A program made the position numbers and the translations under genes. DNA of 57,430 nt from an uncultured Pelagibacteraceae bacterium (lineage in GTDB: Bacteria; Pseudomonadota; Alphaproteobacteria; Pelagibacterales; Pelagibacteraceae): positions 1-57,430 of the forward strand of contig CACDDB010000002.1 in assembly GCA_902551445.1 (NCBI GenBank), given 5' to 3'. Positions 53,686-56,154 of this stretch are shown here, in pieces; within the stretch, counting starts at the first letter, position 1; every line of letters begins with the position of its first letter. The notes beneath the pieces were generated by a model. It was given only the letters and a program-made list of their open reading frames with translations, made no database searches and was not told the DNA's origin.

Positions 53686-54458
53686 AAAAAATTAATTTAG
53701 CTATAACTGGATGTATGGGAAGAATGGGCCAACAGATTATTAAATCTGCTAGATCAGATAAAAATTTCAATATAGTGGCTCTTACAGAGAATAGAATTAT
53801 TAATAAAAAAATTGGTGGTATTAAACCTGGTCTTAATACAGAACAAACCTTTAAAAAAGCTAATTTAATAATAGATTTCACCATTCCCAAATGCACGTTT
53901 GAAGTTTTAAAAATTGCAGCAAAACTTAAAAAAAGAGTAGTTATAGGAACTACTGGATTTTCTAAAAAAGAAGAGAATTTGATTAAAAAATATGCAAAAA
54001 AAATACCCATATTAAGAGCTGGAAATATGAGTTTGGGTATTAACTTATTAATGTATTTAACTGAAATTGCATCGAAATCTCTTGGAAATAATTTTTTAAG
54101 TAAAGTTTTTGAAATCCATCATAAACATAAAAAAGATCATCCTTCAGGAACTGCTTTAATGCTTGGAAAAGGTATATCTGATGGAAAGAAAAAAGACTTT
54201 TACAAATTAATGGGTAAAAAATATTTAAACAAAAAATCTTTTCCTTATGGAAAAAAAATTAATTTTAATTCATTAAGAAAAGGCGAAGTTGTTGGAGAAC
54301 ATGAAGTAAGTTTCTCAAGTGGTAAAGAAATAATTACATTAAATCACGAAGCATTTGATAGAGCCCTTTATTCCGAAGGAGCATTCACAGCGGCTAAATG
54401 GTTAATGAATAAAAAACCTGGACTATATTCAATGAGAGATGTTTTGAATTTTAAATGA
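53682..54458 (+). CDS. dapB: 4-hydroxy-tetrahydrodipicolinate reductase
   Basis: GCMGRMGQQI, EIHHKHKKDHPSGTAL; start trimmed to MKKINLAITG. Confidence 0.96.
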   Translation: MKKINLAITGCMGRMGQQIIKSARSDKNFNIVALTENRIINKKIGGIKPGLNTEQTFKKANLIIDFTIPKCTFEVLKIAAKLKKRVVIGTTGFSKKEENLIKKYAKKIPILRAGNMSLGINLLMYLTEIASKSLGNNFLSKVFEIHHKHKKDHPSGTALMLGKGISDGKKKDFYKLMGKKYLNKKSFPYGKKINFNSLRKGEVVGEHEVSFSSGKEIITLNHEAFDRALYSEGAFTAAKWLMNKKPGLYSMRDVLNFK

Positions 54459-56041
54459 ATGAGGTTCAAAGATCTAAAATAATACGAAAAATTCTAAATA
54501 GAATTTATCCAAGAACTCCAATTCCTTTAAAACACAAAAATAAATTTACTCTACTAGTATCAGTATTGCTATCTGCTCAAACTACAGATGTGAATGTAAA
54601 TAATGTTACTAAAAATATTTATCCAAGATACTATAAACCAGAACACTTTGTAAAATTAGGAAGAAAAAAAATTGAAAAGCTAATAAAGAGTATAGGAATT
54701 TTTAGAGTAAAGGCTAAAAGTGTTTATTTACTATCAAAGCAACTAATTGAGAGACATAAAGGAAAAGTTCCAGATAATTTCAGCGATCTTGAAGAATTGC
54801 CTGGAGTTGGCCATAAAACTGCTAGTGTAGTAATGTCACAAGGGTTTGGTCACCCGGCATTTCCAGTGGATACTCATATACATAGATTAGCTCAAAGATG
54901 GGGTCTAACTAATGGTGAAAATGTTGTTCAAACAGAAAGGGATTTAAAAAAATTATTTCCCAAAAAATATTGGAATAAACTTCACCTTCAAATAATTTAC
55001 TATGGAAGAGATCGTTGTAAGGCCAGAGAATGTTATGGTTTAACTTGTAAAATTTGTACCACTTGTTATCCTAATAGAAAAAAAACCAATCAAAACAAAG
55101 AAAGCTTAATTATGAAAATTTTAGGAATAGGAAATGCGATTGTAGATGTGATCTGTAAAGTTGATGATAATTTTATTGCTCAAAATGGTTTGACAAAAAG
55201 TACGATGAAATTAATTTTTGATGAAAATGAATTTAAAAAACTATTAACAAACCTTAAAATAGAAAAAACCGTTTCAGGTGGATCAGTAGCAAATTCAATA
55301 GTGGGTATGTCTCAGTTAGGTAATAAAGTAGGATTCATAGGTAAAGTATCCGACGACGAACTTGGAAGTAAATATGAAGAAGGATTAAAAAAAGAAAACG
55401 TAAAATACTATTATTCAAAAAAAAAAGAAGAATTACCAACTGGAACATGCTTAATTTTAGTTACCCCTGATTCTGAGAGAACAATGTGCACATTCCTTGG
55501 TACAGCAGGAAAAATTAATGAAAGCGATGTCAGTTCTGATGCAATTAAAAAAAGTGAAATAATATTTCTTGAAGGTTATCTTTGGGACGAAGGGGAACCT
55601 AAAAAAGCTTTTGAAAAAGCAATTCTAAATGCAAACAAAGTAGCAATGTCGTTGTCTGACCAATTTTGTGTAGATCGACACAAACCTCATTTTTTAGAAT
55701 TAGTTAAAAATAAATTAGATATAACGTTCGCTAATGAACAAGAAATCAAGTCATTAATAGATGCAAAATCTTTTGATGAAGTAATAAATTTTTCAAAATC
55801 TCTTGGTAAAATAATTGTATTAACTAGAGGTGAAAAGGGTGCTGTTGCTATTAATGGAGATGAAGTTGTTGAATGTGGAATTAAACAAGGGCTCAAAATT
55901 ATTGATTTAACTGGAGCTGGAGATCTTTTTGCAGCAGGTTTTTTACACGGGCATGTAAATAATATGTCTTTAAAAGAAAGCCTGGATAAAGGTACTGAAA
56001 TGTCCTCTAAAGTTATTCAACAAATTGGCGCTAGACTATAA
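54455..56041 (+). CDS. nth: Single ORF: endonuclease III (about 54455-55111) fused in frame to adenosine-kinase/PfkB-type sugar kinase (about 55112-56041)
   Basis: Nth: LLSAQTTDVNVNNVT, ELPGVGHKTASVV, CX6CX2CX5C Fe-S site; PfkB: LGIGNAIVDV, GGSVANSI, DLTGAGDLFAAGFLHG. Confidence 0.93.
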   Translation: MNEVQRSKIIRKILNRIYPRTPIPLKHKNKFTLLVSVLLSAQTTDVNVNNVTKNIYPRYYKPEHFVKLGRKKIEKLIKSIGIFRVKAKSVYLLSKQLIERHKGKVPDNFSDLEELPGVGHKTASVVMSQGFGHPAFPVDTHIHRLAQRWGLTNGENVVQTERDLKKLFPKKYWNKLHLQIIYYGRDRCKARECYGLTCKICTTCYPNRKKTNQNKESLIMKILGIGNAIVDVICKVDDNFIAQNGLTKSTMKLIFDENEFKKLLTNLKIEKTVSGGSVANSIVGMSQLGNKVGFIGKVSDDELGSKYEEGLKKENVKYYYSKKKEELPTGTCLILVTPDSERTMCTFLGTAGKINESDVSSDAIKKSEIIFLEGYLWDEGEPKKAFEKAILNANKVAMSLSDQFCVDRHKPHFLELVKNKLDITFANEQEIKSLIDAKSFDEVINFSKSLGKIIVLTRGEKGAVAINGDEVVECGIKQGLKIIDLTGAGDLFAAGFLHGHVNNMSLKESLDKGTEMSSKVIQQIGARL

Positions 56042-56046
56042 AAAAA

Positions 56047-56154
56047 CTATTTTTTTTTTCTTTTAAAGCTTCCTTTGCCTTTTTTTGGTTTAATAATTCT
56101 TGGTTTATATTTTTTGGACATTAAATCTTTTGCAAAAAAATTTCTTTTTTTCAT
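56047..56154 (-). CDS. Putative ArfA-like alternative ribosome-rescue factor, 35 aa (MKKRNFFAKDLMSKKYKPRIIKPKKGKGSFKRKKK)
   Basis: L-x5-[YF]-[KR]-x-R-[IV]-x-K-x-KKGKGS-[FY]-x-RK pattern matches the remembered ArfA core; ATGA overlap with upstream regulator gene; not in ORF track. Confidence 0.65.
   Translation of the reverse strand: MKKRNFFAKDLMSKKYKPRIIKPKKGKGSFKRKKK

Follow-up and report, generated by a model that had tools for sequence, protein, structure and literature searches.

A 35-amino-acid relative of the ribosome-rescue factor ArfA in SAR11 bacteria, apparently a minimal back-up for trans-translation

Among the factors that rescue stalled ribosomes, ArfA of Escherichia coli has been described in structural detail: its C-terminus (residues 31-48) fills the empty mRNA channel, the residues Leu19, Leu24 and Phe25 touch Trp319 of the release factor RF2, and RF2 is brought into its open form by the N-terminal minidomain (PMC5378476). 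BrfA of Bacillus is likewise a small, basic rescue factor that depends on RF2 (PMC6881298), and both arfA of E. coli and brfA of Bacillus are translated from mRNAs that lack a stop codon (PMC8012679, PMC6881298). ArfB (YaeJ), a further back-up for rescue, is instead a hydrolase of about 140 amino acids with a GGQ motif. In a survey of 15,259 genomes, ArfB was the usual back-up in Alphaproteobacteria (2,022 of 2,376 genomes), and ArfA was found in none of these 2,376 genomes (PMC11633108); a review similarly confines ArfA to certain beta- and gammaproteobacteria (PMC8012679). When examining a stretch of 57,430 nucleotides (hereinafter, the window; contig CACDDB010000002.1) from an uncultured alphaproteobacterium of the family Pelagibacteraceae, order Pelagibacterales (SAR11), whose genome assembly comprises 0.73 Mb and is 56% complete, we identified an open reading frame (ORF) for 35 amino acids that, judged by its sequence, is a genuine conserved gene and a relative of ArfA. 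With a probability of roughly 0.85, we consider its product to be a minimal ArfA, an RF2-dependent back-up for trans-translation that is natively shortened to the equivalent of approximately residues 10-44 of the E. coli protein.

Comparison of the peptide with Pfam-A yielded a single match, to ArfA (PF03889), which exceeded the curated cut-off by a narrow margin (Table 1), and a scan against NCBIfam yielded no match. All 24 aligned relatives also matched ArfA, with no other Pfam family reaching significance. Moreover, a profile constructed only from these SAR11 sequences, when run against PDB, retrieved six E. coli ArfA chain sequences (E-values from 2.8e-7 to 1.2e-6) and no other molecule up to an E-value of 1; PDB entries for E. 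coli ArfA include 5mgp, 5mdv and 5h5u. The resulting alignment spans residues 11-42 of E. coli ArfA without gaps and defines the common pattern K.N.I...L......[FY][RK].RV.K.KKGKGS[YF].RK, in which the KKGKGS stretch is identical in the two; the core KKGKGS[YF]xRK, which belongs to the part that binds the mRNA channel, is present in the SAR11 peptide and its relatives. E. coli ArfA scored 33.4 bits on the SAR11 profile, against a maximum of 13.9 bits among 4,605 scored sequences made by shuffling its residues, and column-shuffled profiles reached 4.1 bits at most. When genomes were searched with the ArfA profile, E. coli was the only control genome that matched. The peptide contains no GGQ motif, the hallmark of the ArfB hydrolase domain, and, unlike ArfA, BrfA was not matched in any of the searches made here. 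The initial annotation of the window had recognized the likeness to ArfA by eye only, and the Pfam match, the PDB match and the shuffle control bear it out.

The gene is widespread in SAR11. The Pfam ArfA profile matched 312 of the 397 genomes of the family, 209 of them over the cut-off, and the SAR11 profile matched 217 of 298 genomes of the order, including 117 of the 150 high-quality ones, with at least one match in every genus drawn from the order; genomes from the order's other family matched weakly (E-values from 2e-5 to 3e-4). Outside SAR11, the gene is rare: among 386 evenly drawn alphaproteobacteria, only 10 matched, and three of these belong to SAR11. Several of the others have clear ArfA-like cores, for example, NPIARALRTPTFRQRKIRPKKGRGSYSR; these sporadic cores occur in larger alphaproteobacterial genomes (loci L073-L079). 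The survey that reported no alphaproteobacterial ArfA relied on DNA-level searches, with profiles derived from annotated genes (PMC11633108), and this may be why such genes were not detected. Conservation of the KKGKGS[FY]xR core, which the initial annotation had named as a check, is indeed seen in the relatives. Across 144 distinct cores, the ratio of nonsynonymous to synonymous substitution rates (dN/dS) is approximately 0.12 (4,620 non-independent pairs), which indicates selection at the protein level. The KKGKGS stretch, in which the first lysine varies once, and the following arginine are unchanged in all these cores, with variation in the glycine, serine and lysine codons. Given that 80 of the loci were found in genome contigs by a motif pattern, the invariance of the motif is in part selected for; dN/dS and the synonymous changes are less affected by this sampling, and the loci found by profile likewise keep KKGKGS[FY]xR invariant. 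The middle part of the peptide, N..A..L....[FY][KR].R[VI], is strongly constrained as well.

As in E. coli, the rescue components transfer-messenger RNA (tmRNA), SmpB and RF2 are encoded in SAR11 genomes. The initial annotation had left the presence of tmRNA, SmpB and ArfB to be checked. We found tmRNA in the source genome and all 14 relatives checked, and SmpB in 18 of 20 genomes, the two misses being the incomplete source genome and one draft that is 95% complete. Exactly two genes with an RF-1 domain are present in each of 19 relatives, of which only RF1 was recovered from the incomplete source genome, and all 19 RF2 genes read from the relatives retain the SPF motif and the sequence GWGHQIRSY, which is the switch loop with the tryptophan (Trp319) that touches ArfA (PMC5378476). 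By contrast, no ArfB (NF006718) over the cut-off was detected in 10 of 10 SAR11 genomes, compared with six of seven other alphaproteobacteria in which it was. Thus, where it is present, ArfA is the only known rescue factor independent of tmRNA that was found, ArfT and the factors of ribosome-associated quality control not having been searched for.

In the reading that we favor, the peptide would act as follows. When tmRNA-SmpB is overloaded, the minimal ArfA, co-translated with the winged-helix regulator encoded upstream, would insert its lysine-rich C-terminus, KKGKGSFKRKKK, into the vacant mRNA channel of a ribosome that has stalled where a broken mRNA ends; RF2, recruited by the middle part of the minimal ArfA, would then open and free the stuck peptide. 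The channel-binding part is indeed kept in the SAR11 peptide, and a leucine at position 20 and an aromatic residue (tyrosine or phenylalanine) at position 25 are invariant across the SAR11 relatives. Several features, however, weigh against this assignment. Compared with the 72 amino acids of E. coli ArfA, the SAR11 protein lacks the C-terminal tail and residues 1-9, and these roughly nine N-terminal residues are the ones that, in the active state of the E. coli factor, bind S12 and h44. The residues in contact with RF2 differ between the two proteins, with Leu19 replaced by aspartate, Leu24 by lysine and Phe25 by tyrosine, and the counterpart of Ala18, whose change to threonine inactivates E. 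coli ArfA, is lysine. Furthermore, E. coli ArfA can be shortened as far as Asn47 but does not tolerate the loss of more residues, and the SAR11 peptide ends at the position equivalent to 44. Finally, about one-fifth of the high-quality genomes in the order do not have the gene. With the channel part kept, the RF2-contact part partly kept and the N-terminus absent, we regard the protein as a variant of ArfA for which RF2-dependent release, judged by the aligned residues, is likely but not certain.

The same features are compatible with a different role, in which the peptide would sit in the mRNA channel of ribosomes that are idle or stalled and act as a silencer or protector, having lost the activation of RF2; the invariance of the channel-binding part, combined with the shortening of the minidomain that opens RF2 and the altered contact residues, is what such a role would lead one to expect. 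Nevertheless, we consider it unlikely because the middle part is under strong constraint and the partner motif is retained in RF2. In addition, the same middle part is found in divergent ArfA-like proteins from phages and alphaproteobacteria, so that it may be the E. coli protein that is the unusual one.

A second alternative accepts the gene as arfA but adds control by non-stop mRNA, through a tract of ten adenines or through transcript 3' ends. The initial annotation had made this suggestion from the sequence A10-TAG-T7 at the 3' end of the gene. This tract is present in the window, an A10 run precedes the stop codon in 31 of 154 loci, and hardly any space for a terminator remains between the arfA stop and the convergent kinase gene; the proposed role of the tract in yielding non-stop mRNA, however, found no support. 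No terminator-like site was detected in this region of the window, only three of 151 related loci scanned for hairpins and terminators contain one, the fold of the window strand is no better than those of shuffled sequences (z 0.52), and the same holds for the related loci, up to 60 of which were folded. Nor are the flanks conserved: a run of at least six adenines precedes the stop in 65 of the 154 loci, 69 have no A-run, and a run of at least seven thymines follows the stop in two. Slippage by one base in the A-run leads to another stop codon within 27 nucleotides (K-K-K-I-V-F-L-stop when one A is gained and K-K-N-S-F-F-I-V-stop when one is lost, as read from the sequence) and so yields no non-stop message. 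We therefore reject control by non-stop mRNA as improbable. The SAR11 gene thus differs from E. coli arfA in having no RNase III hairpin or terminator and in being coupled to a winged-helix gene; such a hairpin or internal terminator is a control feature of the arfA genes studied so far rather than a property of the protein. Because there is no non-stop signal and the peptide ends near the end of the active E. coli fragment, expression of the minimal ArfA is probably set jointly with the regulator and not by tmRNA. As for an unrelated basic peptide that resembles ArfA by composition, which a short, lysine-rich, low-complexity sequence in an AT-rich genome could suggest, this explanation is largely refuted by the profile match in PDB, the shuffle controls and the lack of a significant match to any other family.

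The arrangement of the locus is given in Table 1. The ORF and its overlap with the stop codon of the regulator lie exactly where the initial annotation had placed them, and the coupling holds beyond the window: a winged-helix gene is directly upstream of arfA in 134 of the 154 loci, and most of the remaining 20 are at contig ends, come from another SAR11 genus or lie outside the order. In five loci from another SAR11 genus (L005, L007, L013, L025 and L059), both neighbors seen in the rest, the winged-helix and the kinase gene, are missing beside arfA. Of 133 loci, the nearest arfA start codon and the winged-helix stop overlap by four nucleotides (NTGA) in 66, overlap by one in 25 and abut in 11. 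The kinase gene, whose PfkB/adenosine-kinase-like family name we presume, is convergent in 127 loci and overlaps arfA in 34 of them or is separated from it by 0-6 nucleotides in 64 (98 of 127 altogether). The Pfam scan matched no receiver domain in the N-terminal portion of the regulator (approximately 115 residues).

Table 1. Features of the arfA-like locus in the window
Feature	Coordinates	Strand	Evidence
arfA-like gene MKKRNFFAKDLMSKKYKPRIIKPKKGKGSFKRKKK, 35 amino acids	56047..56154	-	Pfam ArfA 26.7 bits vs curated cut-off 25.5; ATG...TAG; dN/dS ~0.12
C-terminal basic core KKGKGSFKRKKK	56050..56085	-	gapless alignment with residues 33-44 of E. coli ArfA, within the part that fills the channel
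ATGA, arfA start over the TGA stop of the regulator, 4-nucleotide overlap	56151..56154	-	sequence
Winged-helix (Trans_reg_C) regulator gene, 190 amino acids	56151..56723	-	Pfam 49.6 bits, residues 118-188
PfkB/adenosine-kinase-like gene (presumed family), convergent	55112..56041	+	stop 5 nucleotides from the arfA stop

The absence of arfA is patchy and takes a consistent form. In 20 high-quality genomes of the genus, no match to ArfA was found. We examined nine of them, in which the winged-helix and kinase genes are arranged end to end with arfA cleanly missing; the spacing between the two is 1-5 nucleotides in six genomes and 35 nucleotides in another, and in the remaining two, where the kinase motif escaped detection, the stretch past the winged-helix stop is of the same kind. 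On the tree of the winged-helix protein, which is a gene tree and not a species tree, the absence of arfA requires at least four changes, which makes repeated loss likelier than a single gain. One complete genome without arfA encodes a DmdA protein identical to that in PDB 3tfh, which we take to be from Candidatus Pelagibacter HTCC1062; this genome is, therefore, very probably that of HTCC1062, the standard laboratory strain.

Relatives of the gene are also carried by phages. The product of gp30 of the pelagiphage HTVC027P has been reported as ArfA (PMC12753301). Its sequence, NPVAKEVRTPKYK...IIKPKKGRGSFKR, contains the same core as the SAR11 peptide but differs from it in its length of 58 amino acids, in a longer N-terminus and in the position of the gene next to that for the small terminase; scanned alone, it scores 20.2 bits, under the Pfam cut-off. 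A second ArfA-like phage gene is HTVC034P gp63, MKYKNILVKELHSRKYRNRIKRSKKGKGSFKRLKKVKAEGE, and the records of both phages name HTCC1062 as the host. At least 252 viral contigs encode a relative, a number counted among the first 600 matches to the pattern. Among 80 such contigs that were fetched, none has the neighbor genes of the host, and 18 have other HTVC027P-like genes. Nine of 10 diverse viral examples pass the Pfam cut-off, and PHROGs offers only unnamed families for the viral relatives. A tblastn search of phage records with the 35-residue peptide gave no match, possibly owing to its length and to low-complexity masking, whereas the 58-residue phage query did match. Apart from the pelagiphages, an unannotated ArfA-like ORF ending in SKRNPIAKALRSSHLQPKIVKPRKGKGSFTRKGK lies between annotated genes of Caulobacter phage Cr30 (locus L340, approximately 541-697). 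Acinetobacter phage Acj61 (locus L341, 586-711) and many related phages contain a small ORF, MKGKRNPIAKAVRTPAFKMQVVQDKTQYKRKDKFKKDLRVL, with the ArfA middle part NPIAKAVRTPAF; these ORFs lack KKGKGS, their similarity to ArfA is weak (E-value of about 2), and we did not count them as ArfA.

In SAR11, the most abundant bacteria in the ocean, ArfA is a regular gene, and no ArfB was found among the 10 genomes searched. The chances seem to us about even that a mini-ArfA, instead of ArfB, serves as the back-up in SAR11, that it has been lost several times, that strains like HTCC1062 were left with trans-translation alone and that phages restore the function during infection with an ArfA of their own. 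The losses at a fixed site, very probably including that in HTCC1062, provide natural strains with and without the back-up; together with phages that may supply one, they make it possible to ask directly why a second rescue system is retained by cells and viruses. With 35 amino acids, the protein would, if the assignment is correct, be exceptionally small for an ArfA and reveal which parts of this factor are dispensable.

A further feature of the window concerns the neighboring kinase gene, which forms a single ORF of 528 amino acids together with the gene for endonuclease III (Nth), with no stop codon between them (54455-56041, forward strand). The two are separate ORFs in the 130 relatives that have both, and the joined form, seen only in the window, could be either a real fusion or the result of a base error.
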